Positions 35,970-54,929 of a stretch of DNA of 56,373 nt are shown here, in pieces. Origin of the DNA: an uncultured Phocaeicola sp. GTDB lineage: Bacteria; Bacteroidota; Bacteroidia; Bacteroidales; Bacteroidaceae. Both the position numbers and the translations under genes were made by a program. How positions within the stretch are numbered: the first letter of the stretch is position 1; each line of letters opens with the position of its first letter. The notes under the pieces were generated by a model, which did no database searches, had not been told where the DNA came from, and saw only the letters and a program-made list of their open reading frames with translations. The stretch covers positions 1 to 56,373 of the forward strand of contig CANQSM010000008.1 of NCBI GenBank assembly GCA_947626525.1, written 5' to 3'.

Positions 35970-36080
35970 GTTATTGGCCTGTATGGGTTTCGGAAGTTGA
36001 AACGCTGCTTTCGTGCGCGCTTTTCATGGGGAAAAGTTCGTTTTATTTGCGTGACGTTTTACCTATTAAAATCCCAGATA

Positions 36081-37061
36081 ATGAAAAGAAAAGCAAATCT
36101 AAGAATGGTATTGGAATTTATCCGTACGGAAGTTGAGAACATGAGAGCGGTGAATCGCTTCGGAGTAGCCAAAAATTATGCGTGCGTTCGCAATAGCTTC
36201 TTCCGCTATTTGCGGTCGGAGGGTATGAAAGATATCTCTTTCAAGAAACTGACATCCGAGTTTGTGGACGGTTATCAGACGTGGCTTTGGAACAATGGAG
36301 TCGGTCGGAACAGCTCTTCCTGCTACATGCGTTGCTTGCATGCTCTGTTCAATAAGGCTGTCAGGAAGGGAGTCGCTTCCGGCAATCCTTTCACCGGAGT
36401 GTACACGGGCATTGCGAAAACCCGGAAACGGGCCGTTACAGCGGATGACATTCGCAGCCTGGCCCACTTGGACATCAGGGCGGAACTTATAAAAAGAGGA
36501 AGGAACCCGGAACGGAAGGACTTTGAGGCCTTTTTCCGAAGCCTTCTGTTTACGAAAGACCTGTTCCTGTTCTGCTTTTGCGCTTGTGGCATGACTTTTG
36601 TCGATTTGGCCCATTTGAAAAAGAGCGATTTGTCTGACGGCTTTATCCGTTACGCCCGCAAGAAGACCCGCCAGCCTATTGAAGTGAAGGTGGAAGCCGT
36701 GATGCAGAAGATTATTGACAAGTATGCGAATACGTCTCCCTATCTTTTCCCGATTCTTTCTTCTACTGATACCCGCGAAGCTGAACTGCAATACCGCAGG
36801 GCGATTCGCATTTATAATCTGAACTTGAAAAGGCTGTCTTCGTTTTTAGGGGGCGATGTTTCGTTGACTTCTTATGTCGCGCGCCATACATGGGCCACTA
36901 CCGCCTATCGGCAGCACCTTCCTTTATCTGTCATTTGTCAGGCTATGGGACATGATTCCGAGCATACCACCCAGATTTATTTGAAATCCTTGGAAAATGC
37001 CGTGATTAATGAGGCCAATCACAAGCTATTGGATCATATATTCCATAATTATCCGCAATAA
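36081..37061 (+). CDS. Tyrosine recombinase (integrase/invertase) at the capsule switch, Arg-I replaced
   Basis: The 326-residue protein has a SAM-like core-binding domain (about 5-105) and a tyrosine recombinase catalytic domain (about 120-310). Visible catalytic residues are Lys in RYARKKTRQP, Arg268 in TSYVARHTWAT, His291 in AMGHDSEHTTQIYL and the nucleophile Tyr300. The first catalytic arginine, expected in the segment that reads FCFCACGMTFVDLAHL, is a Cys here (residue 169, codon TGT at 36585-36587; Arg would be CGT). The ORF extends to 35997, but ATG 36081 fits the family N-terminus. Capsule-linked Parabacteroides recombinases invert the promoter next to them. This one sits 60 bp from the inverted repeats but may be inactive. 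Confidence 0.85.
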   Translation: MKRKANLRMVLEFIRTEVENMRAVNRFGVAKNYACVRNSFFRYLRSEGMKDISFKKLTSEFVDGYQTWLWNNGVGRNSSSCYMRCLHALFNKAVRKGVASGNPFTGVYTGIAKTRKRAVTADDIRSLAHLDIRAELIKRGRNPERKDFEAFFRSLLFTKDLFLFCFCACGMTFVDLAHLKKSDLSDGFIRYARKKTRQPIEVKVEAVMQKIIDKYANTSPYLFPILSSTDTREAELQYRRAIRIYNLNLKRLSSFLGGDVSLTSYVARHTWATTAYRQHLPLSVICQAMGHDSEHTTQIYLKSLENAVINEANHKLLDHIFHNYPQ

Positions 37062-37120: not shown

Positions 37121-37329
37121 TTTCTTCCTCCTCTTATATAGAGGAGGAAAGATTGTGCGCAAAGATAGTGAATGTTCCTGAATTACAAAAAGTTTGTCAG
37201 GTAAAAAAAGGTAAATTCCTCCGTCCGTATGGTCTTTTTTAAATCACTTTTCTGATATGTCTGATTGCATTTAACTGATTCACAATTCATTATAAGAGCT
37301 TTCCTCCTCTATATAAGAGGAGGAAGAAA
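37121..37329. repeat. Invertible promoter segment with perfect 31-bp inverted repeats
   Basis: 37121-37151 and 37299-37329 are exact inverted copies (31 of 31). Each contains a dyad, TTCCTCCTC and GAGGAGGAA, around an asymmetric 7-bp core TTATATA, as expected of a tyrosine-recombinase crossover site. The 147 bp between them (37152-37298) hold one good promoter that points left. Inversion would place that promoter just before the right repeat, reading into the upxY-like gene at 37484. The structure matches the phase-variable capsule promoters known in Bacteroides and Parabacteroides. The sequenced orientation is OFF. Confidence 0.9.
37160..37189 (-). promoter_or_regulatory. Capsule promoter, currently facing left (OFF)
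   Basis: On the minus strand TTTG (37186-37189), 18 bp, then TATCTTTG (37160-37167): an exact -7 box with a -33 at slightly short spacing. No comparable rightward promoter is seen in the segment. Confidence 0.7.
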
Positions 37330-37483
37330 ATACCTCTATTTGGCGTATGATGGGCCGGTAGAAAAAGAAAGAAAACAGGGAAAGGCATCCATGCATTGTT
37401 TGGAAAAAATTCCATTCGGTATGTTCCTTTGATGTTTTCTAAGTAATTGAAAATAAATTGATAACCTCATCCGGTAAAGCGGG
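37330..37483 (+). other. Capsule leader region between the switch and the upxY-like gene
   Basis: About 154 bases with no gene and no rightward TAnnTTTG. In the ON orientation the transcript would begin with the right repeat, a GC-containing hairpin (TTCCTCCTC, 7-base loop, GAGGAGGAA), then this leader. UpxY-type antiterminators are known to act through such 5' leaders; no specific site is recognised. Confidence 0.5.
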
Positions 37484-38650
37484 ATGGGGGAGTATGAGGA
37501 ACATCTCATGCAGGATTATCTTCAGCCAGAAACGGAACTGTCAGGTGTTTCCCGTTGGTTTGTGATGACTTCTCCGGATCCGAAGTCCGTGGAGGAGGAC
37601 TTGTCGAATGAAAACCTTCGTCGCAAGGAACGCGGCGCGGTTCCTTTCCGGTATTTTATCCCTTATGCGTTTTTAAAGCGGCGGATAGTCGATCGGTGTG
37701 ACCGCAGCGACGATATTTCGGAGGCAAGTCCCTATTTCAATCCGGGAGCTCGTGAGGAAGTGACTACCAACAATGAGTTGCGTTCGGCACTGAGGCGGTA
37801 TATTTTCATAAAGTCCTCGCCTCTTGATTTGGACCGCCTGTTGCGTGACAGGATGTATCGTGACGCTTACCATAGCCTTTGGTACTACCGCGACCGTTCG
37901 GGCCGGAAAGTTATCGTGGAGGATGTGGAGATGTCCGATTTTATCCGCGCGTGCTGCGACACCCGTCTCCGTTTCGAGGTCTGGCCCGCTTTGGACGGGA
38001 TAGAGGCGAATGACGAGGTTCTGCTCAACAGTACGCCCTTTAAGGGATACAGGGCCCGTGTCCTGGAAGTGCGTCACGGGAAGAACGGCTGTACGCTGAC
38101 GGTGGGTTTTCATCTTCTCCATGGGGGCATGTTGTTGAAATTGCCGGATTTGCATCCCGAGGATGTGCTTTACGAGCGGAAGGACAGTGACAGGTTCGTA
38201 CGGGAGACCAACCGATATAAAATGCTGGAGGATATCCAGCGTAAGCTGTTTGCGGTCATGAGCCGCCGTCAGGAAGTGGGACTGTCGGAAAAGCGAAAGA
38301 AGGAGGACTATTCCACGTTGTCCATGCTGTACAATTACCGTTACCATTTGTTTGAGAGCGATGTCATGCGTCGTAAGTTGAGCGGTTTGATGTTGATTTG
38401 CGCCACATTGTTGGGGGACGCTTCCGGCAAGTCCGAACTGGTCTCTGTGGTTCGTGATGAACTGCGTGCGATGGATACGCATCCTGCGGGTAAGGTGGCG
38501 CATGATGTCCGTGCCCTTCTTCATTCGTGTCTTTACCTGGCCACCCGCGATGCGTATCATTTCGAGGAGGCCATGTCGTATTTCCGTTCCCATTCCCATC
38601 TTTCCGCTACGCATAAGCAATGGATGAAATTACTCCTTGTGAGGCAATAA
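37484..38650 (+). CDS. UpxY-type NusG-like transcription antiterminator (long form)
   Basis: The 388-residue protein has a NusG N-terminal domain (about 24-165): SRWFVMTSPDPKSVEEDL with the aromatic W-F-V start, FRYFIPYAFLKRR, and LRSALRRYIFIKSS, the usual ...RYIFI strand. A KOW-like segment follows near 175-200 (GIEANDEVLLNSTPFKGYR). The remaining 190 residues form an extra helical region, so it is about twice the length of the roughly 170-190-residue UpxY proteins of B. fragilis. UpxY proteins prevent premature termination within their own capsule operon. Position as first gene after the invertible promoter supports this. No upxZ-like gene follows. Confidence 0.8.
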   Translation: MGEYEEHLMQDYLQPETELSGVSRWFVMTSPDPKSVEEDLSNENLRRKERGAVPFRYFIPYAFLKRRIVDRCDRSDDISEASPYFNPGAREEVTTNNELRSALRRYIFIKSSPLDLDRLLRDRMYRDAYHSLWYYRDRSGRKVIVEDVEMSDFIRACCDTRLRFEVWPALDGIEANDEVLLNSTPFKGYRARVLEVRHGKNGCTLTVGFHLLHGGMLLKLPDLHPEDVLYERKDSDRFVRETNRYKMLEDIQRKLFAVMSRRQEVGLSEKRKKEDYSTLSMLYNYRYHLFESDVMRRKLSGLMLICATLLGDASGKSELVSVVRDELRAMDTHPAGKVAHDVRALLHSCLYLATRDAYHFEEAMSYFRSHSHLSATHKQWMKLLLVRQ

Positions 38651-38852: not shown

Positions 38853-40334
38853 ATGATTGACATGAACATAGATATACATACTTTGATTGGTGAAGCAACA
38901 GCCTACGACAAGAAACAGATGCTTGAAATCAAGCGACCTAAAAGCTGGCTCAAAAGTGTATCTGCCTTTGCTAATGGTGAGGGCGGAACATTGATTTTTG
39001 GCATCAGCGATGATAACCAAGTAGTAGGGCTTACTGATGCGGAAGGTGATGCGGAGAAAATTAGTGAGGAGCTAAAGAACAAACTTGATCCAGTGCCGGT
39101 CGTCAATCTTGAATACAAGGAAGTGGATGGGAAAAAACTTGTGTTGCTACATGTATATCCGGGACAAGAGACTCCGTATTACTATATCGGTGACAAACAG
39201 CGCCTTGCATTTGTCCGCGTGGGCAATGAATCGGTTATAGCAGATCGTATCCAACTGAAAAGTCTTGTTCTAAAGGGCTCCGGTCGTACTTACGATAGTC
39301 TGTCATCCAACTATAGATTTGAAGATATGGCATTTTCCAAGCTCAAGTCCATTCATTACAAAAGATTGCAGCGTTCGTTTGAAGACAATGAGTTTGTTTC
39401 GTGGGGGATCATTGACGAAAATGGCAATTTGACAAATGGCGGTGCATTATTGGCTGATGAATCTCCAATACGTCAGTCTCGTATATTCTGTACACGTTGG
39501 AATGGTTTAGACATGACAAACGGTTTGGGAGAAGCGATAGATGATGTTGAATTGGAAGGTTGCGTAATCGGTCAGTTGCAGGATGCCGTATCTTTTGTCA
39601 GAAACAATTCTCGTAAGAAATGGTGGAAAGAAAATGATCATCGGGAAGAACTTCCTGATTATCCCGAACGTGCCGTGACGGAAGCAATAGCAAATGCCAT
39701 TATACATCGGGATTATATGCAGATGGGTAGTGAAATACACATTGATATGTATGATGATCGCTTGGACATATATTCACCTGGAGGCATGATGGATGGAAGG
39801 CTTATTCAGCAGTTGAATCCTCTTACCGTTCCATCTAAAAGAAGAAATCCATTACTGGCCGATTTTTTCAGCCGGTTAGGGCTTATGGAGAGACGTGGTA
39901 GCGGAATGAAGAAGATAATCGATTCCTATAAAAGGTTTGAGCGTCTGCCTAATTATCATATCCCTGAATTTCAGTCAAATACATCAGAATTTCATGTGAC
40001 ATTATGGAACTTGAATTATGGGAATGGTAGTGTAATAAATGAGAAAAAGTTCCTAAAAGAGGTTATAGGAACGGGAAAAGAGTTCCTAAAAGAGGATAAT
40101 AAGTTCCGGAAAGAGTTCCTAAAAGTTCGGCGGATGATTTACAAAATGATTTCAGCAAATCCGGGAATTACAATTGCTGAAATGGCTGTAAATATAGGTA
40201 TTTCTGACCGCCAAGTGCGTAAATACATAAAGAGAATGACTGATATGAAGTTCATTGTCAGAGAAGGAGGACGAAAGAACGGGATATGGAAAATAATAGA
40301 CGGTGATTACGAAGACTTCTTTGAAAGAATATGA
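38853..40334 (+). CDS. AlbA_2/Schlafen-type putative ATP-dependent DNA/RNA-binding protein
   Basis: The 493-residue protein starts with an AlbA_2 (Schlafen-like) domain at about 15-130: LEIKRPKSWLKSVSAFANGE, GGTLIFGISDDNQVVGL, and YYYIGDKQRLAFVRVGNES. A C-terminal ATPase-like domain (HATPase_c_4 type, about 250-365) contains DYPERAVTEAIANAIIHRDY, DIYSPGGMMDGR and RRGSGMKKII. A K/F-rich linker and a winged helix (about 430-490, ITIAEMAVNIGISDRQVRKY) follow. Such proteins are annotated as transcriptional regulators or helicases, and some are in defence islands. It sits between the upxY-like and flippase genes, with its own promoter, so it looks like an insertion in the capsule operon. Confidence 0.8.
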   Translation: MIDMNIDIHTLIGEATAYDKKQMLEIKRPKSWLKSVSAFANGEGGTLIFGISDDNQVVGLTDAEGDAEKISEELKNKLDPVPVVNLEYKEVDGKKLVLLHVYPGQETPYYYIGDKQRLAFVRVGNESVIADRIQLKSLVLKGSGRTYDSLSSNYRFEDMAFSKLKSIHYKRLQRSFEDNEFVSWGIIDENGNLTNGGALLADESPIRQSRIFCTRWNGLDMTNGLGEAIDDVELEGCVIGQLQDAVSFVRNNSRKKWWKENDHREELPDYPERAVTEAIANAIIHRDYMQMGSEIHIDMYDDRLDIYSPGGMMDGRLIQQLNPLTVPSKRRNPLLADFFSRLGLMERRGSGMKKIIDSYKRFERLPNYHIPEFQSNTSEFHVTLWNLNYGNGSVINEKKFLKEVIGTGKEFLKEDNKFRKEFLKVRRMIYKMISANPGITIAEMAVNIGISDRQVRKYIKRMTDMKFIVREGGRKNGIWKIIDGDYEDFFERI

Positions 40335-40426: not shown

Positions 40427-40458
40427 TTTGGCGTTCTCGCATGAAAGATGTATGTTTG
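40427..40458 (+). promoter_or_regulatory. Full-consensus Bacteroidetes promoter for the AAA-ATPase gene
   Basis: TTTG (40427-40430), exactly 20 bp, TATGTTTG (40451-40458). Both boxes and spacing match the consensus. Transcription from near 40465 rules out the upstream starts of the open frame and sets the start at ATG 40476. Confidence 0.7.
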
Positions 40459-40475
40459 TAGAAAATTTGTTTGAT

Positions 40476-42275
40476 ATGACTTCGAAGGCTTACCCCAAAC
40501 GCATTCCTTACGGAATGATGAACTTTGTCGATGTGCGCGAGGACAATTGCTACTATGTGGACAAGACGCACTTTATCGAAAGGATAGAAAGCGCGCACCG
40601 TTTCTTCTTCTATATACGTCCGCGCCGTTTCGGCAAGAGCCTGACGATGTCGATGCTACGGCATTACTATGACGTGCTGGAAGCGGACAAGTTCGAGCGG
40701 TGGTACGGGGGATTGTATATCGGCAGCCATCCTACTCCGGAGCGTGGAAGTTACTTGATCCTTTACCTGAATTTCGCGGAAGTGGCGGCCGGCTTGGGCG
40801 ACTATCGGAAAGCTTTGGATTCGTATTGTGATATCTGTTTCAACAGTTTTTGTTTCCGGTATGCGGCTTATCTGCCGGAGGGCACAAAAGAAGAATTGAA
40901 CCGTCATGACGGTGCGGTGGCGCGGTTGAGTTTCCTGCATAAGCTGTGCACGGATATGAACCTGAAGATTTATTTGTTCATCGACGAGTACGACCATTTC
41001 ACCAACAAGATACTGTCCGACCCGATATCGTTGGAAAGCTATAAGAGCGAGACACATGGAACAGGGTATCTGCGCTCTTTCTTCGATACGGTAAAGGGAG
41101 GTACGGACACCAGTATCAAGCGTTGTTTCATTACAGGGGTAAGTCCGGTGACCATGGACGATGTGACGAGCGGTTTCAATATCGGCACCAACTATTCGCT
41201 CTCTCCGGAATTCAACGAAATGACGGGTTTCACGGAGGAGGAGGTGCGCGCCATGCTGGACTATTACCGCACCACTTGCGAGTTCCACCATACTACGGAC
41301 GAACTGATAGCCCTGATGAGGCCTTGGTACGACAACTATTGCTTCGCCAGGCAAAGCTACGGGAGAACCACCATGTACAATTCGAACATGGTGCTCTACT
41401 TTGTGGACAATTACATTCGCAACGGCGGATATGTGCCTGACAATATGCTGGAAGAGAACATCCGTGTGGATTACGAGAAGTTGCGTATGCTCATCCGCAA
41501 GGACAAGGAGTTCGCGCACGACGCCTCGATAATACAAACCTTGGTGGAGCAGGGCTACATCGCGGGCGAGTTGAAGTCCGGTTTCCCGGCCGGGAAGATT
41601 TCCGACCCGGACAACTTCGTGAGCCTGCTGTTCTACTTCGGCATGCTGACTCTTGACGGAACGATAGAGGGAAAGACTAAGCTGGCCATCCCGAATCAGG
41701 TGGTGCGGGAGCAGCTGTACAGTTACCTGCTGGATACCTATAAGGAAGTGGACTTGCGGTTCGAGAGTCACGAGAAGAGCGAATTGTCTTCCCGTCTGGC
41801 CTATCGTGGTGACTGGCAGGTCTATTTCGGATACATTGCCGACTGTTTGCGGCGTTACGCTTCCCAGCGTGACCGCCAAAAGGGCGAATCGTTTGTACAC
41901 GGTTTTACGTTGGCCATGACGGCCCAGAACCGTTTCTACCGTCCCGTATCGGAACAGGACACTCAGGCCGGATACGTGGATCTGTTCCTATATCCGTTGT
42001 TGGATATCTATCGGGACATGAAGCACAGCTACGTGATAGAATTGAAGTACGCCAAAAGAAAAGATACGGATGAGCGTGTGGAACGTCTCCGCAGGGAAGC
42101 CATTCTTCAGGCCGACCGCTATGCCGCCAGCGAGCTGGTGCAAGGTGCCGTTGGAGATACGACACTGCATAAGATAGTGGTTGTCTATCGGGGTATGGAC
42201 ATGGTGGTGTGCGAGGAAATTACGCAGATAGCTGCAAGTGGCAATGCAGCTATGTGCGTTGGCCAATGCAGCTAA
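40476..42275 (+). CDS. AAA-ATPase-like protein with PD-(D/E)XK nuclease-like domain
   Basis: About 599 residues. The N-terminal AAA-ATPase-like domain begins RIPYGMMNFVDVREDNCYYV, then VDKTHFIERIE, and a nucleotide-binding region written RPRRFGKSLTMSML (a Walker-A variant, about 50-63). A Walker-B-like IYLFIDEYDHFTNK (about 165) and a sensor ITGVSPVTMDDVTSGFNI follow. The C-terminus (YVIELKYAKRKDTDERVERL and QADRYAASELV) matches the PD-(D/E)XK nuclease-like DUF1703 domain. These genes are abundant and mobile-looking in Bacteroidetes; function is unproven, possibly nucleic-acid restriction. Its promoter is independent, and a repeated hairpin overlaps its stop codon. Confidence 0.8.
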   Translation: MTSKAYPKRIPYGMMNFVDVREDNCYYVDKTHFIERIESAHRFFFYIRPRRFGKSLTMSMLRHYYDVLEADKFERWYGGLYIGSHPTPERGSYLILYLNFAEVAAGLGDYRKALDSYCDICFNSFCFRYAAYLPEGTKEELNRHDGAVARLSFLHKLCTDMNLKIYLFIDEYDHFTNKILSDPISLESYKSETHGTGYLRSFFDTVKGGTDTSIKRCFITGVSPVTMDDVTSGFNIGTNYSLSPEFNEMTGFTEEEVRAMLDYYRTTCEFHHTTDELIALMRPWYDNYCFARQSYGRTTMYNSNMVLYFVDNYIRNGGYVPDNMLEENIRVDYEKLRMLIRKDKEFAHDASIIQTLVEQGYIAGELKSGFPAGKISDPDNFVSLLFYFGMLTLDGTIEGKTKLAIPNQVVREQLYSYLLDTYKEVDLRFESHEKSELSSRLAYRGDWQVYFGYIADCLRRYASQRDRQKGESFVHGFTLAMTAQNRFYRPVSEQDTQAGYVDLFLYPLLDIYRDMKHSYVIELKYAKRKDTDERVERLRREAILQADRYAASELVQGAVGDTTLHKIVVVYRGMDMVVCEEITQIAASGNAAMCVGQCS

Positions 42276-42586: not shown

Positions 42587-44041
42587 GTGCTTACCGTGGC
42601 TTCAATTAAGGTAAATTATATATTTAATCTGGTAAATTCAGGGACACAAATACTGTTTCCCTTAATTACGTTCCCTTATGCTTCCCGCATCATAATGGCG
42701 GAAGGCATAGGACAGGTAAACTTCTTCAATTCTATAATCTTTTATATTACGCTATTTACTTGTTTGGGAATACCCATGTATGCAATAAGGGAAATAGCCA
42801 AAGTTCGAAATGATATAAAAAAAACATCGGTCACAACTATTGAAATTCTGTCGCTACATGCTATACTATCCATATTAGGATATGTAGCTGTTGCTATAAT
42901 ATGTATGACCGTAACAGAAGTACAGGTAAACATCCCCCTATTCCTGATTCTTAGTGCCAGTATATTTTTTACAGCAATCGGTTGTGAATGGTTTTATCAA
43001 GGGATAGAAGATTTCAAGTATGTAACCATACGTGGCCTAGTCGTAAAAATTGTATCCATTATACTCTTATTCCTATTAGTCAAAAATCAGGAAGACATAT
43101 TGTGGTATGGCGTATACAACGTATTGGGTGTTCTGGGCGGCAATCTCTTTAATTATATTCGCTTAAGGAAATTCATAGACAAGGAATGCATCTCAATACA
43201 TGATTTACACCCTATACGACATTTAAAACCGGCATTACGTATTTTTGTCCTTAATGTTATTACAAGTATATATCTCCAACTTAATACCTTGTTATTAGGT
43301 TGCTTGAAGGACGTAACCGCCGTAGGATACTTTACAGCCGCCACCAAACTCATGCAGGTAACAAGAAGTGTACCCAGTTCATTAGGAACTGTTATCATGC
43401 CACATGTTTCATACCTGATAGCTGAAAATAAAATGGATGAATTTAAAACGGTCAGCCAAAAATCGTATGATTTTATTCTGGCAATATCAATACCACTGAC
43501 AATCGGTCTTATATTCACAAGTAAAAGTGCGATATTAATGTTAAGCGGCGAAAGTTTTCTTCCCGCCGTAACATCCTCACAAATTGTAGCATTCAATATC
43601 ATCTCAATAGGAATATCCAATGTATTAGGCCTTCAAATACTATATCCTATGGGAAAAATAAACCTTGTCACAACATGTACTTTTTTAGGTGCAATCATAA
43701 ATGTAATTTTAAACGTTGTACTGATACCATTATATGGCCATAACGGCAGTGCAATGGCTTTTATGGCTACCGAAGCCGTAGTTACCTCATCTATGTATAT
43801 CATCGGAAGAAAATACTTTCCTCATAAATTATTCAAACGTCAACATCTGAATTATCTATTTGGAGGTTTTCTGATGATAATATGTCTTTATGGTGTAAAT
43901 TTAATACAATTGAATTATATCACATCCTTTATCGTCATGGTCATTATTGGAGTAGTGGTTTATAGCATGACATTAATTATAATGAAAGACCCTATAACTA
44001 TCCTGATATTGAATGCATTAAAACTAAAATTGGGCCATTAA
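42587..44041 (+). CDS. wzx: Polysaccharide repeat-unit flippase (Wzx-like, MVF/MATE fold)
   Basis: The 484-residue protein has about fourteen membrane helices. Polysaccharide-flippase motifs include YIFNLVNSGTQILFPLITFP, then YASRIIMAEGIGQVNFFNSI and the cytoplasmic YAIREIAKVRND, ending in a cluster of helices. It moves undecaprenyl-linked repeat units across the inner membrane for polymerisation by Wzy. Start is GTG (42587, or the in-frame GTG at 42596). Base composition is visibly more AT-rich than the genes before it, as usual for laterally exchanged capsule genes. Confidence 0.88.
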   Translation: MLTVASIKVNYIFNLVNSGTQILFPLITFPYASRIIMAEGIGQVNFFNSIIFYITLFTCLGIPMYAIREIAKVRNDIKKTSVTTIEILSLHAILSILGYVAVAIICMTVTEVQVNIPLFLILSASIFFTAIGCEWFYQGIEDFKYVTIRGLVVKIVSIILLFLLVKNQEDILWYGVYNVLGVLGGNLFNYIRLRKFIDKECISIHDLHPIRHLKPALRIFVLNVITSIYLQLNTLLLGCLKDVTAVGYFTAATKLMQVTRSVPSSLGTVIMPHVSYLIAENKMDEFKTVSQKSYDFILAISIPLTIGLIFTSKSAILMLSGESFLPAVTSSQIVAFNIISIGISNVLGLQILYPMGKINLVTTCTFLGAIINVILNVVLIPLYGHNGSAMAFMATEAVVTSSMYIIGRKYFPHKLFKRQHLNYLFGGFLMIICLYGVNLIQLNYITSFIVMVIIGVVVYSMTLIIMKDPITILILNALKLKLGH

Positions 44042-44129
44042 TGTATGTAATGACAATGTGTCTTGGGCTGAAAGAAGTTGGCTAAATCATAACATTATGA
44101 TATAAACCCTCTCAAATTAGGGCTCCCAA

Positions 44130-44371
44130 ATGAAATACCTATCTTCTGAGATGTTTGGACAAGAAGTATATGAACATCCCCGAACCGTTATATCTAAAGA
44201 ATATTTTAAGGAATGGGATTATGGTATAGAACCCTATTATCCGGTGAATGATGTGAAGAATTCCAATTGGCAAATATGGAATCAAATGTCATATTTGGTA
44301 GTCGATTGGCGGAGTATAAATATTATGACATGGCGTCAATTATAGAAAACGTTTTAAATATTAAATTATGA
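44130..44371 (+). pseudogene. glf: UDP-galactopyranose mutase (glf) 3' remnant
   Basis: The frame from 44130 contains EHPRTVISKEYFKEW followed by EPYYPVNDVKNS, a diagnostic late region of UDP-galactopyranose mutase. It then breaks. In another frame 44290-44371 reads ESNVIFGSRLAEYKYYDM and ASIIENVLNIKL, the true Glf C-terminus. The two parts are joined with a short deletion and frameshift near 44262-44290, and roughly the first three quarters of the roughly 370-residue gene are missing. Its stop overlaps the start of the next gene by ATGA. Glf makes UDP-galactofuranose; its loss suggests the ancestral capsule contained Galf or that recombination imported a neighbour. Confidence 0.75.
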
Positions 44372-45411
44372 GAAGGGGTTATAAAGTTGTTTGTAATACG
44401 GCTGCAGGCCGTCATAGGTATATGAATTTGTTGGTACCGTATGTATTAGCAAATGAAATTGTTGATAGATATGATATATGGGTTAATACGCTTAATCCTG
44501 TAGATTTACGATTTTTTGAGTTATTAGCAAAAAAATATTCTAAAATAAATTTGATATATATTGATGACAATAAGTTTAATGGATTAGGTTCAATATTTGG
44601 CTTTTATAAACATTGTGTAGAAGAAGATACTATATATGTTAAGTTGGATGATGATTTAATATGGCTTGATCCAGAGGCTATAACAAAGATGGTTGATTTT
44701 AGAATAGATAATCCAGATTACTTTATAGTATCTCCTTTGGTTATTAATAATTGTGCTGGGACTTATTTGTTGCAGAATGAGGGGAAAATTAGATTGAAAA
44801 AATATTTATCATCAGCAATGACATGGGAAAGCTCTTGGTGTTCAGCTACATTTGCATATCAACTTTTAGATTGGTTTCATGGAAAAATTATAGATGATAG
44901 TTATAAGAATTTATACATGGGGAAAAAGACTATTTCCATGTTACGTTTTTCTATAAATATGATAGTGTGGTTTGGGGCAACTTTTAAAGAATTTGGTGGA
45001 GTTTGTCCTGATGGTAATAATGATGAGGAATATTTTTCAGTGATAAAACCTACTCAATTAGGGCTTGCTAATTGCATTAATACAGATGCAATTGTCGCTC
45101 ATTTTGCGTTTACATATCAGCGTAAGGAACTTGATAAAACTGATATTCTTTTAAAATATGAGAATTTAATAAAATGCGGGGATGATAAAGTTCGTTTGAT
45201 ATATGAAAATATTAAGGAACTTATATTTATGGCCAAAGAAAATACAGATATTAAAGTCCCTAAATATGAAGATTGCCGTCCTAAAGAAAATAAAATTCGT
45301 GTTTTTCTTCGAACGAGGAGAATTCCAGGAACGTTTTATGATTGGGGTAGAATTAGTTATAGGTTGAAGGAGCATAGGATAGAATTTGATGATGGTTTTA
45401 TTAGAGTATAA
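44368..45411 (+). CDS. Putative glycosyltransferase (GT-A-like, capsule)
   Basis: The 347-residue protein has a Rossmann-like front (YKVVCNTAAGRHRYMNLLVP) and a metal-binding DxD-type motif in YVKLDDDLIWLDPEAI (about 90-105), followed by FIVSPLVINN. A later acid-rich segment PDGNNDEEYFSV could hold the catalytic base. No signal or membrane segment is seen. I do not recognise a numbered family with confidence. It is very AT-rich and is translationally coupled to the end of the glf remnant. In context it should add one sugar of the capsule repeat unit. Confidence 0.6.
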   Translation: MRRGYKVVCNTAAGRHRYMNLLVPYVLANEIVDRYDIWVNTLNPVDLRFFELLAKKYSKINLIYIDDNKFNGLGSIFGFYKHCVEEDTIYVKLDDDLIWLDPEAITKMVDFRIDNPDYFIVSPLVINNCAGTYLLQNEGKIRLKKYLSSAMTWESSWCSATFAYQLLDWFHGKIIDDSYKNLYMGKKTISMLRFSINMIVWFGATFKEFGGVCPDGNNDEEYFSVIKPTQLGLANCINTDAIVAHFAFTYQRKELDKTDILLKYENLIKCGDDKVRLIYENIKELIFMAKENTDIKVPKYEDCRPKENKIRVFLRTRRIPGTFYDWGRISYRLKEHRIEFDDGFIRV

Positions 45412-45704
45412 ATTTGTATTTTATTTCGGAATTGTCTACTTTGGGCTTACGCCCGTCAAACATTTGTGCTTCATCGTCTCAGCCAATGCCGGTGAATCCA
45501 TGTACTCCTCGCTTCCTGTAGATGCTTTGCAAATATATGAATGTTATGTTCAATTTCCAGTAAATCCAAATCAGGGCTGTCCTTTGATAGCAGCCGGACG
45601 GCGAATGTGTGTCGGTTGCTTGTCATACCTTGATATCCACTTGCGGGGCCAATGGCATAGCCGCCTTGGCTTATTTGAAGAAATAATTCAGTCCATGTAA
45701 AGTT
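45412..45704. other. Gap with an unrecognised leftward open stretch
   Basis: No intact gene. A leftward frame of 75 codons (45471-45695) without a start reads protein-like text (including RLLSKDSPDLDLLEIEHN and WIHRHWLRR), which I cannot assign. A rightward frame over the same bases reads nothing familiar. It is more GC-rich than the gene before it and is probably debris from a replaced gene. Confidence 0.35.
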
Positions 45705-46366
45705 ATGATTAATACAAAAAAAGAATTGCGGTTTTATATCATGGCAGACCGTATTATGGCCGGGCTGCCTGCAAAGGCTTCGTTGAAAGAACGTTGTGGT
45801 TGTTTCCTGAAAGAATTGGCAGGAATCTATCGGACCGTCTCTTATCTGGAGGCGATGCGACGATATGCCTATTATTAAAACCGGCAGAGTATATGTGTAG
45901 GGGGGGGGAAAATATGTTACTAATATTTCTTCGATCTTACTGGAAGTATCGTTATGTCAAGATCGGTCAGAGGCTTGGCTTTACGATTGGTTTCAACGTG
46001 TTTGGCTATGGTTTGATGATTCCTCATGATGGCACTATTGTAGTAAGTTCCGTATCTCGTGTAGGAAATTTTGCGGTTCTTCATGCTTGTGCGCTTATTG
46101 GAGGGCCTGGCAAGAGGATAGGCAATGCATTATATATGGGGAACGGTTCCAAGATAGTGCGGCCGTTGACGTTGGGTGATAACGTACAGGTATCCGCAGG
46201 CAGCCTCGTCAACCGTAGTTTCGGGTCAGGCATTTTGCTGGCTGGCAGTCCGGCCACGGTGAAAAAGCAAGGTCTCAGACCATGGTACGAGGAACAAGGG
46301 TCGCCATGGAAAGACAGGGCTGAGGTTGTGTTGAGGTTACGTAGAGATATATTCGGTGTAAGTTGA
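45705..46366 (+). pseudogene. Serine O-acetyltransferase-like (hexapeptide repeat) gene, frameshifted beside a G9 tract
   Basis: From ATG 45705 a frame reads MINTKKELRFYIMADRIMAG and onward to a stop after RRYAYY (about 45881-45883), the N-terminal helical region of capsule-type serine acetyltransferases. The catalytic left-handed beta-helix continues in the next frame (KYRYVKIGQRLGFTIGFNVF, then GYGLMIPHDGTIVV, RVGNFAVLHACALIGG and NVQVSAGSLVNRSFGSG). A nine-G run lies at 45900-45908 just after the break. One base gained upstream of the stop would restore a single frame. Translation of the hexapeptide part alone from ATG 45914 is conceivable. It would acetylate serine or a sugar in the capsule. 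Confidence 0.7.
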
Positions 46367-46432
46367 ATATTATCAATGGTTAAAATTCAGCAGAAAAAGT
46401 ATGGCTAAAATTTAACCCTAATTCGAGTACCT

Positions 46433-46570
46433 ATGGAAAGCTTCATAAAGAGGTTTTTCTTATTTGGGTACGTTAAAATGGGACGCTTACTAACTTCCAA
46501 ATTCAAGCCCGAATCGGATAGTCCTAAAAGAAAAAAATGCAGATTTAAAACAAGAAAAATTATCATATGA
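46433..46570 (+). CDS. Small basic hypothetical protein (45 residues)
   Basis: ATG 46433 opens a 45-codon frame (MESFIKRFFLFGYVKMGRLL then a lysine/arginine-rich tail). It ends in an ATGA overlap with the polymerase start at 46567. The overlap suggests translational coupling. No family recognised; it may be a leftover of a truncated gene. Confidence 0.3.
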   Translation: MESFIKRFFLFGYVKMGRLLTSKFKPESDSPKRKKCRFKTRKIII

Positions 46571-47898
46571 TTTATGGTAAGAAGCTTAATCCTATACTGT
46601 TAGTTTTTTTTATGGTTTGGATTGTAGCCATGGGAGGGGCACTATTGGATTTCAATAGTCATGCCTTACGTTTAAACAATATTCAGTCGTGTATCCTTCC
46701 GGTTTGTTTCCTGTTTTTTTGGGTGCTCTTACGGTTTCGCCCACAAGACATGAAGCCTTATTGGAGTATAGTGTGTTGTTTGTTGCTATGGCAGGTGGCA
46801 CTGATTGTAAAGTTTGGCAGTTATGATTTCCTTATAGGACGGTTTTATGACATAACATTTGCTTTTGTCTTGGTGCGTGCTTTAGGGCTGAGAAAGATGT
46901 TGTATTATTATGAAGTTGCCGTGGCCAAGTTATCCCTGTTGGGACTTTGTCTTTGGATTCTGGTGCAGGTAATCCCAATGCTGCAAAAAGCACTCGTAGG
47001 TTTTTCTTTGCCAATCAATGAAACGGGTACACAAGTAGCAAGTTGGGGGATTGTTGGAATCTCCAATTCGGAGAATGTGGGTATTTTACGTAATTTGGGT
47101 TTTGCGTGGGAACCTGGACGTTATGCATCTTTTGTTGTTTTAGCTTTGATGTTCCATTTGTATCGTACACGTTTCCGTTTGTTTCAAGCGAACTTTTGGC
47201 CATTGTTTCTGGGTTTGTTCAGCAGTTTGTCCACGACTGGTTATATGGCATTTATGATATGTATTTGGGGTTATTATCTGAATGCACGGAGAACTACTGC
47301 ATCCCAGATACTGAAGTTCTTGTTGCCGGTAGTATTTTTCGCTATCTTTATAGTTTTTCCGTTCATGTTGGAGAAAGTTCTGGAGATTTCTGATACAGAT
47401 AATTTTATTACCGATAATAAGGTAAGTTATTACGGAAGTATTGGCTATACTTATATTCCGCAAAGAATCGAGGGGTTATTCTATGAGGCTTTGAATATAT
47501 TTAATGACCCATTGTTGGGCTATGGCGATAATTTGTACTACTCTTATGTGCAAAGTGTCTTGTTCTCTCAGATGTCCATTAGGCTGTCTAATGGTTTTTT
47601 GCAGATAATAGCTATGTTGGGCATTCCTTTAGGTTTGTTGTTCTATTGGGCGATATACCGTTCTTCATCTTGCATCTCCCGAATGTATAATATAAAAGGA
47701 AATTATTTGATTTTCTTGGTTATATGTGCCGTGAATATCTCTTATAACTTTTTCTTTGAACCTTTCTTCGTGGCTCTTGCATTATATTGTGTATTCATGC
47801 CACAGTCCGATAAGGCAATTATTTTTAATCAAGAATATGAGAAAACGAGTCGTAGCCGTCCGTCCGTACCAATTCAAGGAAGGCATGCAGTTTCTTAA
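46567..47898 (+). CDS. wzy: O-antigen/capsule polymerase (Wzy-like)
   Basis: The 443-residue protein has about ten to twelve membrane helices with short loops and one large periplasmic loop (about 270-320, LEISDTDNFITDNKVSYYGS) before the last helices. This is the usual Wzy topology, although Wzy sequences share few motifs. The helix pair IVGISNSENVGILRNLGFAW followed by EPGRYASFVVLALMFHLYR resembles the conserved W-E-P-G segment of O-antigen ligase/polymerase proteins. It would polymerise lipid-linked repeat units at the periplasmic face. The downstream glycosyltransferase gene starts inside its 3' end (47837). Confidence 0.8.
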   Translation: MIYGKKLNPILLVFFMVWIVAMGGALLDFNSHALRLNNIQSCILPVCFLFFWVLLRFRPQDMKPYWSIVCCLLLWQVALIVKFGSYDFLIGRFYDITFAFVLVRALGLRKMLYYYEVAVAKLSLLGLCLWILVQVIPMLQKALVGFSLPINETGTQVASWGIVGISNSENVGILRNLGFAWEPGRYASFVVLALMFHLYRTRFRLFQANFWPLFLGLFSSLSTTGYMAFMICIWGYYLNARRTTASQILKFLLPVVFFAIFIVFPFMLEKVLEISDTDNFITDNKVSYYGSIGYTYIPQRIEGLFYEALNIFNDPLLGYGDNLYYSYVQSVLFSQMSIRLSNGFLQIIAMLGIPLGLLFYWAIYRSSSCISRMYNIKGNYLIFLVICAVNISYNFFFEPFFVALALYCVFMPQSDKAIIFNQEYEKTSRSRPSVPIQGRHAVS

Positions 47899-48787
47899 CG
47901 GCGCATTTCGTGCCTGGAGAGATGCCGGAGGGGCATGGTGTAACCATTGCTGGCGGCCTCGTCCTTTCCATTATTTCTTCCACCATTACAGCGTGCCTTT
48001 CCGCTTTCCTCAATCAAAAAGGGAAGCAAGACTGGTGTTCGTGTCGTCTTCCATCTTTCGGTTCAATACTTTTGCCGATTATGTACGTTATGAGGTGATT
48101 CCGATGATTTGGGACTGTTGGCCATGTTATTTTGAGGAAATAGCTGCATTCCTGAATAAGAATAAGGTGCGAACTGCAATATTCACGTCGTCAATGACTG
48201 CCGACTTGATGAGAAAACGTTTTCCAGGGATGAATATACTATTTGTCCCAGAGGGAATAGATGTCTCACCCTATCATGCCGGTAAACTGTTGAGGAATCG
48301 TGGCATTGATTTGTTAGAGTTTGGCAGGAGTAATAAAAAGGTATTAAATGAGGGTTTCAAAAGGAAAGATATCGTGCATAAATGTAGTAGGCACGGTGAA
48401 TGGGTATTCCCTACAAATAAAGAATTATATGATGGGTTGGCCGACTCTAAAGTGTCGCTGACTTTCCCCCGTTGCGACACGCATCCCGAAGTGGCCGGTA
48501 GCATAGAGACCCTCACGCAAAGATATTGGGAGTGCATGTTGAGTCGCGTGGTGATGGTGGGTAGGGCGCCATTCGAACTTGTGAACCTTGTCGGATATAA
48601 CCCGGTGGTAGAAATCGGCAGAAAGACTGCCGAGGATTTGATTATGGATGTGGTGATGCATCCTGAAACCTATCAGGGCCTTGCGGATAAAAATCGCAAA
48701 GTCGCTTTGCAATATGCCAGATGGTCGGGACGGATGCCTAAGATTATGAATTTCTTGAAGGAATGTGGTTATGTCGTGTTAGAATAA
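47837..48787 (+). CDS. Capsule glycosyltransferase (GT-B-like)
   Basis: About 316 residues from ATG 47837 (MRKRVVAVRPYQFKEGMQFL). The middle part has NILFVPEGIDVSPY, typical of the interdomain donor-binding region of GT-B enzymes. The C-terminal part (LADSKVSLTFPRCDTHPEVA, then TQRYWECMLSRVVMVGRAP) resembles the glycosyltransferase-1-like domain used for nucleotide-sugar binding, with the acidic residue near the end. The open frame reaches back to 47756 but overlaps the polymerase; ATG 47837 gives a normal N-terminus. A role in repeat-unit assembly is inferred from context. Confidence 0.7.
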   Translation: MRKRVVAVRPYQFKEGMQFLNGAFRAWRDAGGAWCNHCWRPRPFHYFFHHYSVPFRFPQSKREARLVFVSSSIFRFNTFADYVRYEVIPMIWDCWPCYFEEIAAFLNKNKVRTAIFTSSMTADLMRKRFPGMNILFVPEGIDVSPYHAGKLLRNRGIDLLEFGRSNKKVLNEGFKRKDIVHKCSRHGEWVFPTNKELYDGLADSKVSLTFPRCDTHPEVAGSIETLTQRYWECMLSRVVMVGRAPFELVNLVGYNPVVEIGRKTAEDLIMDVVMHPETYQGLADKNRKVALQYARWSGRMPKIMNFLKECGYVVLE

Positions 48788-48835
48788 ATATGGTCAAATG
48801 AATCTGATAATTAACAAATATTCAAACAACTAAAA

Positions 48836-49762
48836 ATGGAAAATAAGAAAAAGATAGCGATAGTGATTGTAACTTTCAATCGGAAGGAAGAGCTTCGACG
48901 ATGCCTGCATGCTTTGTTTCAGCAGGAATATCTTCCTGCGGCCATTTATATTGTCGACAATAACAGCAGCGATGGGACAGGGCAGATGTTGAAAGACGAA
49001 GCCCTTCTTGAACATCAAAAGATAAAGTTGCATTATATTAATAGCGGAAAGAATCTAGGAGGTGCGGGAGGTTTTTACTTAGGGGTAAAGACTGCGCACG
49101 AGACGCAACTTTATGATGCCTATTTGTTGATGGATGATGATGGCTGGCCAGACAAAGGCGAGATTAAGGAAATGGTGCCGTTTTTAGGAAAGTATGACTT
49201 TATCAATGCCTTTGTGGTTAATCTCAATGACGAGACGAAGACCGCATTCAAACAGTCTGAGGTAAATGGTAATGACAGAAGGAAAGTTGAAGCCTTACAG
49301 AATGAAGAGGGCTTAATCTTGGACTATGCCAATCCTTTCAATGGCACGATGATCAGCAAGAAACTCGTAGGACAGATAGGTTATCCCAAAGCAGAGATGT
49401 TTATATATGGAGATGAGGTGGAGTATTTTAACAGGGCAAGGAAATTCGGCTTTCAGCCGGTTACTCCCATCAAATCCATTCATCGTCATCCACGGTCAAA
49501 AGCGAAAATGAATTATCAGAAAATTCTGTGTTGGAATATACCATATGTGTTGAGAACTAATCCGCTAATAATATATTGTGCTCATAGGAATGAATTATAT
49601 AATATATGCACAATACGTAATGGATTGAAGATATTTCTTGCTGATATAGTAACATTGTATCATTACAATAAGACTTCTAAGGAGTTACGCAATGTTATGC
49701 TTTCCGCTATTTGGGCAGGTCTGAGGCGTGATTTTACGGGGCATTTAAAGTTCGTAAAATAA
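48836..49762 (+). CDS. Family 2 glycosyltransferase (galactofuranosyl/rhamnosyltransferase type)
   Basis: The 308-residue GT-A enzyme begins KIAIVIVTFNRKEELRRCL. It has the nucleotide-binding IYIVDNNSSDGTGQML, then GKNLGGAGGFYLGVKTA, and the metal-binding LLMDDDGWPDKGEIKEM (about 98-114). A later MFIYGDEVEYFNRAR (about 196) carries the likely catalytic base region. The G-G-A-G-G-F and DDD-W-P pattern is that of the GlfT-like GT2 subgroup, which often transfers galactofuranose or rhamnose. A decayed UDP-galactopyranose mutase gene upstream makes a Galf connection tempting, but substrate is not shown. Confidence 0.82.
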   Translation: MENKKKIAIVIVTFNRKEELRRCLHALFQQEYLPAAIYIVDNNSSDGTGQMLKDEALLEHQKIKLHYINSGKNLGGAGGFYLGVKTAHETQLYDAYLLMDDDGWPDKGEIKEMVPFLGKYDFINAFVVNLNDETKTAFKQSEVNGNDRRKVEALQNEEGLILDYANPFNGTMISKKLVGQIGYPKAEMFIYGDEVEYFNRARKFGFQPVTPIKSIHRHPRSKAKMNYQKILCWNIPYVLRTNPLIIYCAHRNELYNICTIRNGLKIFLADIVTLYHYNKTSKELRNVMLSAIWAGLRRDFTGHLKFVK

Positions 49763-49908
49763 TATCGGAGATTTCTTTGGTCTTGCAGAGGTGTAAGATG
49801 CCCCAACAGGGATTCCATTTTTAGAAAGTATGTGCAGGTGTCTATAAAATATTATATGAGAATCAAAGACGGGGAATAATAGTAGAAAATCATATAAAAA
49901 TTAGATGT

Positions 49909-50940
49909 ATGGGAACAAATAATCCATTGGTTACGATAGCCACCTCTATGTACAAGGTGGAGCAATATGTTGCGCAGAACATTGAATCACTGATTGCACA
50001 AACATATGCAAACCTTGAGATTATTATTGTTGATGACGGTTCGCCCGACAACTCAGGCAAGATTGCGGACGAATACGCCTTGAAGGATAGTCGCATTAAG
50101 GTTATTCATCAACATAACAAAGGTTTGGGGAGTGGACGTAATGCGGCAATTGACATTGCTACGGGCGATTACATCACATTCGTTGACGCAGATGACACTA
50201 TATGCCCTGATTTTGTTGAATATATGCTTCGTCTTATAACAGATGCTGGTGCGGACATAGCCATTTCAAAAAACTGTTTTACCACGTCAGATATGCACCA
50301 AGTGAAAGAAGAAACAATTGAAATTTATTCACCGGAAAAGGCTGTCACCGAATTCTTCTATCCTTATATCCAATTGGGGGCATGGAACAAAATGTATAGC
50401 ATGGCTTTCATGAGAAGCCATGGGCTGAGGTTTGTTCCAGAGTTGAAAACTGGCGAAGGACTTGAGTTTATAACGCGAGCTGCGTCTTTTGCAAATAAGA
50501 TAGTTACCGGAAATCGTAAAGTGTATGTATATCGGTTAGATAATGCCGGTTCCGCAACGACCAAAGCTGATGTTGAACGGCAGGGTAAAGGTTCTCTTGA
50601 AACGATAAAATATATTGGGGAACATCTTGAAATAAAAACATCACAAATAAAATCGGCATATAGCTGGCATTTATGGAATTGCCATAGGTATTGTCTGAGA
50701 CAGATTATTGATTCTGGGACTAAAACGCAATATAAGGATTTATACGCTGAGTGTAAACGATATTTGCGTAAACATTCATGGGATATAATATTTTCAGACG
50801 TGAAGCTAAGACTGAAAGTAAAAGCTTTGTTAGTATTCTTATCTCCTTCTTTTTATGCGCATCTGCAAATTGCAAAAAAGAAACGTATAATGAAACAATC
50901 TTATGGATATCAAGATAATTACCCGTCACGCTGTTTCTAA
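49909..50940 (+). CDS. Family 2 glycosyltransferase
   Basis: The 343-residue protein opens with PLVTIATSMYKVEQYVAQNI and IIIVDDGSPDNSGKIADEY, the GT2 nucleotide-binding front. GLGSGRNAAIDIATGDYITF is followed by VDADDTICPDF, which holds the metal-binding D-x-D (about 88). It is cytoplasmic or membrane-peripheral with no transmembrane helix. It would add one sugar to the lipid-linked repeat unit. The pyruvyltransferase gene begins at 50903 inside its 3' end, so the two are coupled. Confidence 0.85.
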   Translation: MGTNNPLVTIATSMYKVEQYVAQNIESLIAQTYANLEIIIVDDGSPDNSGKIADEYALKDSRIKVIHQHNKGLGSGRNAAIDIATGDYITFVDADDTICPDFVEYMLRLITDAGADIAISKNCFTTSDMHQVKEETIEIYSPEKAVTEFFYPYIQLGAWNKMYSMAFMRSHGLRFVPELKTGEGLEFITRAASFANKIVTGNRKVYVYRLDNAGSATTKADVERQGKGSLETIKYIGEHLEIKTSQIKSAYSWHLWNCHRYCLRQIIDSGTKTQYKDLYAECKRYLRKHSWDIIFSDVKLRLKVKALLVFLSPSFYAHLQIAKKKRIMKQSYGYQDNYPSRCF

Positions 50941-52000
50941 TTACGGCTCTTTGCTCCAGGCAATAGCGACTCAGACCATAATTGAAAACTTGGGTCATAA
51001 GTGTGAAATAATCGACTATATGCGCAATGATGAGCACGGATTTCATGGAGTGATTACCGCCTTACAAAGAAAAAGGGAATGGACAGACAGTATATTAAAG
51101 GAGTTGGCCTATGTGATTCTACGTTATCCGGATGAAAAAATAGCGGAAATGAGATTCGGTGCGATGCGCCGTAAATATTTGAACCTGACGGAACGTTGCC
51201 GGACATTTAAAGGCTTATCAAAACTTGATGCGGATGTATTCATGACCGGCAGCGATCAGGTGTGGGGACCGATGATGAACGGTAAGCCTGACGGAGCTTA
51301 CTTTCTTGATTTTGTAAAACAAGGAAAGAAAGTGGCATACGCCGCTAGCTTCGGGCGCACGGAATTCATGCCACAAGTGTTGTTCGAATATAAAAAACTG
51401 TTAGGTTGTTATGACCGTATTGCCGTCCGTGAAAACTCTGCAGTAAAGTTGCTTGAAGAAATGAATATAGCTTGTGTCGGACAGGTACTCGATCCAACGC
51501 TGTTGTTGACGGGTGAGGAGTGGAGTCAGTACATTAAGAAGGACGTAAAAGGAAAATACGTATTGGTTTATCAGTTGCACAACAATCCGATGCTGTGCAG
51601 ATATGCCCAGCATTTTGCAAATAAAGTGAAATTGCCTTTATTGCGTATTTCGCCATCTTTCCATCAGTTTCGCTGTGGCGGAAAGTTTGTTTATTTACCA
51701 GATATAGACGAGTTCCTGTCGTATATCAAGAACTCTACTTATTTTATTACCGACTCGTTCCACGGGACAGCTTTTGCAATCAATTTTAATCGGCAGTTCA
51801 TTGAGATATTGCCCAATAACAAAACTGATTCTCGTAATCAAAGTATTTTACAGCTTACAGGGCTGACCGAACGTATAGTAACTGACTATGAAAATTTCTC
51901 TATTGCCAATAAGACAATTGATTATAAGACTGTGAACGAGATTTTGGATAAAGAAAGACGGAAATCTATGAAGATACTTAAAACTCTTTTGGGGGATTAG
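50903..52000 (+). CDS. Polysaccharide pyruvyl transferase family protein
   Basis: The 365-residue protein has the family's opening KIITRHAVSNYGSLLQAIAT and the diagnostic FMTGSDQVWGPMMNG (about 112-126), then YAASFGRTEFMP, IAVRENSAVKLLEEMNI and, in the second domain, FITDSFHGTAFAINFNRQFI. Such CsaB/WcaK-like enzymes transfer pyruvate from phosphoenolpyruvate to a sugar as an acidic ketal, giving the polymer charge. The fold is GT-B-like and cytoplasmic. It overlaps the preceding glycosyltransferase by 38 bp, and a GT4 gene follows 6 bp later. Confidence 0.88.
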   Translation: MDIKIITRHAVSNYGSLLQAIATQTIIENLGHKCEIIDYMRNDEHGFHGVITALQRKREWTDSILKELAYVILRYPDEKIAEMRFGAMRRKYLNLTERCRTFKGLSKLDADVFMTGSDQVWGPMMNGKPDGAYFLDFVKQGKKVAYAASFGRTEFMPQVLFEYKKLLGCYDRIAVRENSAVKLLEEMNIACVGQVLDPTLLLTGEEWSQYIKKDVKGKYVLVYQLHNNPMLCRYAQHFANKVKLPLLRISPSFHQFRCGGKFVYLPDIDEFLSYIKNSTYFITDSFHGTAFAINFNRQFIEILPNNKTDSRNQSILQLTGLTERIVTDYENFSIANKTIDYKTVNEILDKERRKSMKILKTLLGD

Positions 52001-52006
52001 GGTAAA

Positions 52007-53164
52007 GTGAAAATCTTATTGGTCAATAAATTCTATTACCGCCGGGGCGGTGATTGTGTTTACGTGCTCAATCTTGAACAGTTGTTGAAGAAACACGGAC
52101 ATGAAGTGACCGTATTTGCCATGGATTATCCAGAGAATATAGACACGGAATGGAAGCGGTATTTCCCTCAGAACATGACTAAATGGATGGCCTTTACGCG
52201 TCCGTTCGGTTCAAGAGAGGTAAGGGGAAAATTCAACAGGCTTTTGGATGACTTCCGTCCAGAAGCGGTACATCTGAACAATATCCACACCCAGCTGTCT
52301 CCCGTGCTGGCTGAATTGGCACACGGGCGCGGTATAAAGGTCGTGTGGACTCTGCATGATTATAAATTGCTGTGTCCGCGATATGATTGTCTGCTCAACG
52401 GAGATATGGTGTGTGAAGCTTGTTTCAAAGGGGATAAGAAAGCATGTCTGGACCACAAATGCATGAAAAGTTCCAAATTGGCCTCTTTCGTGGGGTTTCG
52501 TGAAGCGAATGTGTGGAACCGGAAGAGATTGGAAACTTCAACGGATGTGTTTGTCTGTCCGAGCCGGTTTATGGCAGAGAAGATGTCACAAGGAGGCTTT
52601 GATCAAAAGAAGCTATATCCGTTGTGCAACTTTATCGATGTGGAGAAGTGTATAGGCTTGGATTGTACTGAACGGAAAGATTATTATTGTTTTATAGGCC
52701 GGTTGAGTCATGAGAAAGGGGTGAAAACGTTGATTGAGGCTGCCAACCGACTTCCATATAAATTGAAGATTATCGGTGACGGACCGCTCTATGGCGAGTT
52801 GAAAGCTATTGCCCATAATCATATTGAATTCTTAGGACATAAGGGTTGGGATGAAATTAAGATGCTTGTGGGGCAGGCCCGTTTCTCAGTGATTCCTTCT
52901 GAATGGTATGAGAATAATCCCCTCTCGGTGATTGAAGCGGAATGTCTTGGCACTCCTGTTTTAGGAGCTGCCATAGGTGGTATTCCGGAATTAATAACTC
53001 CAGTGTCCGGCATGACTTTCGAAAGCCGTAATGCGGATGATTTGGAATCGAAAATAGAGGCTATGTTTGACCATAAATTTGATTATTCGGCGATTGCCGG
53101 GGCATCGCTGAGGCGATACGATGCCGGGGCTTACTACCATGAGATAATGAAAATATATAAATGA
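52007..53164 (+). CDS. Family 4 glycosyltransferase
   Basis: The 385-residue GT-B enzyme starts at GTG 52007 (KILLVNKFYYRRGGDCVYVL). The N-terminal acceptor domain (about 1-190) contains VHLNNIHTQLSPVLAELAHG, VVWTLHDYKLLCPRYDCL and a cysteine cluster (CEACFKGDKKACLDHKC) common in this subgroup. The C-terminal donor domain has YYCFIGRLSHEKGVKTLIEA, LKIIGDGPLYGEL and the E-x7-E motif in SEWYENNPLSVIEAECLGTP. It adds a sugar to the growing repeat unit. Confidence 0.87.
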   Translation: MKILLVNKFYYRRGGDCVYVLNLEQLLKKHGHEVTVFAMDYPENIDTEWKRYFPQNMTKWMAFTRPFGSREVRGKFNRLLDDFRPEAVHLNNIHTQLSPVLAELAHGRGIKVVWTLHDYKLLCPRYDCLLNGDMVCEACFKGDKKACLDHKCMKSSKLASFVGFREANVWNRKRLETSTDVFVCPSRFMAEKMSQGGFDQKKLYPLCNFIDVEKCIGLDCTERKDYYCFIGRLSHEKGVKTLIEAANRLPYKLKIIGDGPLYGELKAIAHNHIEFLGHKGWDEIKMLVGQARFSVIPSEWYENNPLSVIEAECLGTPVLGAAIGGIPELITPVSGMTFESRNADDLESKIEAMFDHKFDYSAIAGASLRRYDAGAYYHEIMKIYK

Positions 53165-53191
53165 GATGTGGGGTTGTTGATTTATTATTCG

Positions 53192-53199
53192 TATCTTTG
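53192..53199 (+). promoter_or_regulatory. -7 promoter box TATCTTTG ahead of the AAA remnant
   Basis: Exact TAnnTTTG, 24 bp before ATG 53224. It probably belonged to the intact ATPase gene. Confidence 0.4.
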
Positions 53200-53223
53200 G
53201 ACTCCAAACAAACAAAGAACGGA

Positions 53224-53557: not shown

Positions 53558-53684
53558 TACTTATAGCATAATCATCCCTTTTTTACTACATAATAATAAG
53601 TAGGCTGGTACTTAGGTCTATACATGTACGGTTATATGGCTGTACATCTTTTTTGTTTCTGTTTCATAAATACAAATTTATTTT

Positions 53685-54758: not shown

Positions 54759-54759
54759 T

Positions 54760-54870: not shown

Positions 54871-54929
54871 TGATTCGGCTTTTGTCTTTACAAAAGTAAC
54901 AGTTTGTTTTCAAAATCAAGAATGTTTTT

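Follow-up and report, generated by a model that had tools for sequence, protein, structure and literature searches.

A probable invertible capsule promoter, sequenced in the OFF orientation, beside a tyrosine recombinase gene in an uncultured Phocaeicola

Layout of the locus and the inverted segment

The window, i.e. the whole 56,373-nucleotide stretch of DNA analysed here, comes from an uncultured Phocaeicola sp. and carries an ABC-F-type ATPase gene and an M13 peptidase gene to the left of a tyrosine recombinase gene, followed by a short segment bounded by inverted repeats, a leader, a long UpxY-like regulator gene, two further genes and a polysaccharide locus (Table 1). The original prediction had described perfect 31-bp inverted repeats around 147 bp, and this description holds exactly. 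The arms are 100% complementary and form the longest perfect inverted repeat of the whole window among pairs at most 500 bp apart; when the window was randomised 20 times with a first-order Markov model, the longest perfect pair under the same spacing limit was only 11-15 bp. A point absent from that prediction is that a single arm is itself near-palindromic, TTCCTCCTC-TTATATA-GAGGAGGAA, which amounts to a layout of half-site, 7-bp spacer and half-site. Viral contigs held no exact match to the site, and two 15-letter strings from the arm core had no match in literature text, a search that does not cover letters within figures.

Table 1. Features of the locus, in window coordinates.
Feature	Position	Strand	Remarks
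Tyrosine recombinase, probable invertase of the switch	35997..37061	+	PF13102, E 4.6e-18; PF00589, E 3.3e-10
Left inverted repeat arm	37121..37151	+	CTC-N7-GAG core; spacer TTATATA at 37134-37140
Interior of the invertible segment, 147 bp	37152..37298	.	between the arms
Promoter TTTG-N18-TATCTTTG	37160..37189	-	leftward, i.e. OFF for the capsule genes
Right inverted repeat arm	37299..37329	-	exact reverse complement of the left arm
Leader, switch to upxY-like gene	37330..37483	+	hairpin before conserved GGGGAGTATG; alignment of four leaders
Long UpxY-like (NusG-related) regulator with C-terminal extension	37484..38650	+	start 37484 or 37508; NF033644
AlbA_2/HATPase_c_4 gene, between regulator and sugar genes	38853..40334	+	
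AAA-ATPase-like/PDDEXK_9 gene, between regulator and sugar genes	40428..42275	+	
Polysaccharide locus	42587..56054	+	flippase, O-antigen ligase/Wzy-like, glycosyltransferases, pyruvyl transferase, radical SAM

The expected single Bacteroidota-type promoter, pointing left and away from the upxY-like gene, is likewise present, and was named by the Bacteroidota promoter consensus. The pattern TTTG-N17-21-TANNTTTG occurs four times on the two strands of the window, compared with a mean of 1.05 in 20 randomisations, a rate from which about 0.004 motif would be expected in the 209-bp segment. A single -7 box, of the TATCTTTG/TACCTTTG kind, lies in the segment, and no full promoter motif there points right. 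Inversion had been proposed to place the transcription start just before the right repeat, and the predicted -7 box would indeed then lie at 37283-37290, 194 bp from the ATG at 37484. In the leader, a hairpin (37455-37512, with equivalents on L059, L061 and L060) stands directly before GGGGAGTATG, which is strong in the window (fold z -5.06) and weak in the other three (-2.20, -1.08 and -1.78). The presence of a flippase, glycosyltransferases and a pyruvyl transferase agrees with the capsule or polysaccharide genes that had been expected downstream of the switch; the O-antigen ligase/Wzy match is below cut-off and several genes of the locus are without a match. Because the AlbA_2 and AAA-ATPase/PDDEXK genes precede the flippase, the reach of a transcript to the sugar genes is assumed.

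The regulator, the recombinase and their recurrence

The gene at 37484 had been called upxY-like. The likeness stands, as the NCBIfam model antiterm_UpxY (NF033644) matches the product with an E-value of 8.4e-8; membership of the family does not follow, as 32.4 bits is below the curated cut-off of 100 bits. Judged by its sequence, the regulator is a distant, long and divergent relative of UpxY, which we do not place in NF033644. The 388-residue protein, a NusG-like part followed by an extension of about 150 residues, has no Pfam match; the UpxY model matches four of its four long homologs, and hhalign of the profile against a short UpxY gives 87% probability over 115 columns. Structure prediction for the UpxY-like protein without an alignment was poor (mean pLDDT 45) and was not used. 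One long homolog, in genome G023, adjoins a gene that looks like one for a dTDP-glucose dehydratase, and no arm pair was seen by eye in front of it. The UpxY model has nine matches in the window's own genome, three of which exceed the cut-off (C44, C85, C38). No comparable switch was recognised upstream of six match places (C44, C85, C38, C11, C56 and C7, the last a NusG by our reading) when about 3.1-3.5 kb was scanned for exact arms of at least 12 bases spaced 60-500 bp apart, and the only arm pairs encountered were one of 14 bp and one of 12 bp.

The recombinase gene, a neighbour absent from the original prediction, ends 59 bp left of the left arm, and its product belongs to the tyrosine recombinases by its match to the PF00589 catalytic-domain profile and by the R-H, GH and Y motifs read from the alignment. 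It is most likely the enzyme that would flip the segment. An ortholog with 72% identity adjoins the equivalent switch in G001, the nearest relative and also an uncultured Phocaeicola, and both frames are without stops. In both enzymes (L060:5895-7043 in G001), a Cys takes the place of the Arg that stands before GM/GL in five paralogs, in an alignment that covered five of eight strong paralogs (seven entered, L018 and L019 left out for a wrong reading frame), and five recombinase homologs outside the genus also have Arg at that position, before GL, GI or GM. The activity of the window enzyme is therefore not certain. According to the accessible part of PMC8138268, CTnDOT-type enzymes are without the usual box I arginine and have another Arg downstream instead, and we read the Arg of YARKKT in the window recombinase as an IntDOT-like alternative at a like place.

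The substitution bears on a second explanation, in which the capsule promoter is genuinely invertible but another tyrosine recombinase flips it in trans, while the adjacent enzyme is a relic or acts at other sites. The genome holds eight other recombinase matches at E<1e-40, and P. vulgatus inverts its promoter despite a broken adjacent recombinase, as far as the accessible text of PMC13114119 describes it. However, the conservation of two open frames at 72% identity, the retained motifs together with the alternative Arg as we read it, and the pairing of this recombinase with CTC-N7-GAG arms in four other genomes all speak for the adjacent gene, and we regard flipping in trans as rather unlikely.

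Recombinase matches at E<1e-80 were present in 7 of 151 family genomes, own genome included, a set drawn from a larger group. The order of recombinase, arms, left-pointing promoter box and UpxY-like gene recurs in four family genomes (G001 at C14, G145, G023 and G155), with differing arm sequences. Outside the genus, a CTC-N7-GAG arm pair lies behind the recombinase in three of five genomes (G145, G023, G155), with three other spacers that are unlike the classes of the window and G001. Our script found no arm pair of at least 14 bp beside the recombinase homologs of G098 and G135, so the association of recombinase and arms is not universal. The in-frame stops in the recombinase matches of G023 and G155 fall at the outset, ahead of a possible Met, and by our reading these genes may therefore be whole. 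A UpxY-like protein follows the switch in G145, G023 and G155, and one also occurs in G098, where no switch was recognised. The three short ones, in G023, G155 and G098, reach 83.9, 90.2 and 79.0 bits, all below the 100-bit cut-off. Recognition of the G155 regulator as UpxY-like slightly strengthens the reading of an invertible capsule promoter. Behind C26, C11 and C14 of G001 the contigs stop just after or inside the regulator, and the sugar genes are outside view there. The G001 recombinase frame (L060:5895-7043) crosses the left arm and enters the invertible segment, and inversion would therefore alter the last residues of the recombinase.

Copies of the site and contig ends

The core of the site, in an observation that goes beyond the original prediction, occurs at three further places in the same genome, beside amidase, clostripain and seryl-tRNA synthetase/tRNA-Arg genes, and is thus not capsule-specific. 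A 25-base core pattern with up to three mismatches found 6 sites in the own genome (G000) and 10 in G001, and its reversed control found none in either; among 61 genomes searched with 117 bases of copy C70, a match appeared in these same two alone. The arm of the window copy together with the promoter end of its interior is 87-91% identical to C70, C54 and C100. The spacer TTATATA is the single class at all four own-genome places (window, C70, C54, C100); G001 has three classes, namely TTATATA (C9, C23), TTACATA (C11, C26) and TAATATA (C14). Paired spacers are identical within the element in all ten complete elements, of which C9 and C23 have a common flank and may be one locus, and differ between loci. 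Since tyrosine recombinases require matching spacers, this fits ongoing exchange, though common descent of the two spacers in a pair would also produce a match.

In each of the ten elements seen complete, a TATCTTTG or TACCTTTG box occurs exactly once. The full promoter pattern in a loose form matched in five regulator-linked elements, ending 36-40 nt from the segment's edge as we set it, and did not match in the elements of G145 and G155. Among the non-capsule copies, the C54 promoter faces a short leader, behind which tRNA-Arg and serS lie on the other strand, that of C100 is antisense to the clostripain gene, and those of C23 and C70 point into flanking DNA. The C9 copy of G001 (L063:765-4222) points at an HD-CE/HATPase pair, two overlapping frames that look like one gene split by a frameshift, in which PADLOC found no match. 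The outer flanks of C70 and C9/C23 were on no further contig, and an Rfam scan of L002, L003 and L004 returned nothing beyond one tRNA. A repeat of 85-109 bp, which includes a long hairpin (AGCCAACTAATTC...GAATTAGTTGGCT), lies near non-capsule copies (L034:218-302, L062:8838-8946, L063:4282-4390), and in two of these copies the right arm is followed by alike short leaders with a possible tiny ORF (MFTRL...; L034:108-180, L063:254-416).

The contig ends allow some further insight into flipping. In G001, the start of C9 and the end of C23 have exactly 77 bases in common (50 of flank, 25 of core and 2 more), beyond which they enter one segment from opposite ends; the two versions of this segment are 99.5% identical. 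Overlaps of 77 bases also join the start of C54 with C70 in the own genome and the ends of C11 and C14 in G001, and this repetition suggests that both assemblies probably used an assembler k of 77; the C100/C70 overlap of 76 does not fit this value exactly. The distance from the start of C70 to the divergence point of its two arms is exactly 77 bases. Both the C70 start and the C9/C23 fork would fit what is expected of a mixed population at one site, and we take the fork as indirect evidence that a non-capsule copy may flip in G001. Past the other arm, C9 and C23 agree at 87% over about 190 bp, so that exchange between two loci, duplication of the flank or a mixture of strains may also account for the fork.

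The window contig, unlike the forked copies, crosses both arms without a break, which indicates that one orientation dominated its assembly. The contrast with the sister site C70, where the contig break lies exactly 77 bases away from the inner edge of the arm, would also be expected of a locked switch, in which the arms are intact, inversion has ceased and the locus is permanently OFF or runs on another promoter. The promoter faces away from the UpxY-like gene in seven of seven elements (window, C14, C26 and C11 of G001, G145, G023, G155), as such a lock would have it. However, most capsule loci are expected to be OFF at any given time, so little can be drawn from this uniformity, and the arms are still perfect; we consider a locked switch quite improbable. 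A dispersed element of the MITE kind, whose terminal inverted repeats enclose a promoter by chance, could explain the interior common to C70, C54 and C100, but we found no target-site duplication by eye at the two outer edges, and C9 and C23 show opposite orientations beside one flank. We reject this reading as extremely improbable for the kept position beside a homologous recombinase and the diverged arms in other genera.

Proposed mechanism and relation to known switches

The element at 37121-37329 is thus very probably an invertible capsule promoter of known type in the OFF orientation. We propose that a tyrosine recombinase, most likely the adjacent one, would bind the half-sites TTCCTCCTC/GAGGAGGAA in both arms, and that strand exchange within the 7-bp spacer would invert the 209-bp segment. 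In the sequenced orientation, the only recognised promoter would fire left, toward the 3' end of the recombinase gene, so that the upxY-like and polysaccharide genes would be without a transcript from that promoter and the downstream capsule genes presumably silent. After inversion, transcription would pass through the right arm and the leader into the upxY-like gene (ON), whose product may act as an antiterminator and let RNA polymerase read through the long operon. Possible, though doubtful, is an extension of this scheme to one invertase regulon, in which the capsule invertase would also flip the non-capsule promoters (amidase, clostripain, serS/tRNA and, in G001, HD-CE/HATPase), the spacer would pick the partners, and the OFF promoter, antisense into the invertase gene, could stabilise the OFF state. 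If so, capsule state would be tied to unrelated functions.

Such switches are well known, and mildly new is the presence of the same switch sequence beside genes without an obvious capsule tie. A third known system, besides those of P. vulgatus and B. fragilis, reportedly exists in a Bacteroides species, in which one recombinase of the tyrosine type serves local and distant sites, a model that we also propose for the window. The accessible text of PMC13114119 presents invertible promoters before upxY with an upstream recombinase as a frequent feature of gut Bacteroidaceae, and the promoter upstream of upxY in a polysaccharide locus of P. vulgatus CL10 was shown to invert, with a site-specific recombinase upstream. 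Compared by architecture, CL10 differs from the window in that its neighbouring recombinase is broken and its broth cultures are almost exclusively ON (same text of PMC13114119). Mpi of B. fragilis is a global invertase, one enzyme for many loci, and as in the window, a promoter feeding capsule loci lies between short arms; however, Mpi belongs to the serine recombinases and its arms read ARACGTTCGTN, whereas the window has a tyrosine recombinase gene and CTC-N7-GAG arms (accessible parts of PMC8375218 and PMC5903667). An Mpi-type switch, or membership of the Mpi regulon, is ruled out by the tyrosine type of the recombinase and the different arms.

Capsule switching shapes how sensitive gut Bacteroidales are to phages and how they interact with the host. 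The pair of tyrosine recombinase and CTC-N7-GAG site can be traced across genera, and its natural spacer variants and linked non-capsule sites form a test set for site choice by the invertase; the common non-capsule sites and the spacer classes are the best new handle.

The window also contains a second inverted pair at 342-399 and 642-698 (58 bp at 88% identity, of which 27 bp are perfect, with about 240 bp between the two), which encloses a TATATTTG and no full promoter motif and is possibly another invertible or mobile element. Finally, an imperfect 107-bp palindrome with CGTTCACCGTCCA at 840-946 is a dispersed repeat, which recurs on C44, in front of upxY, in the form of a short inverted pair.
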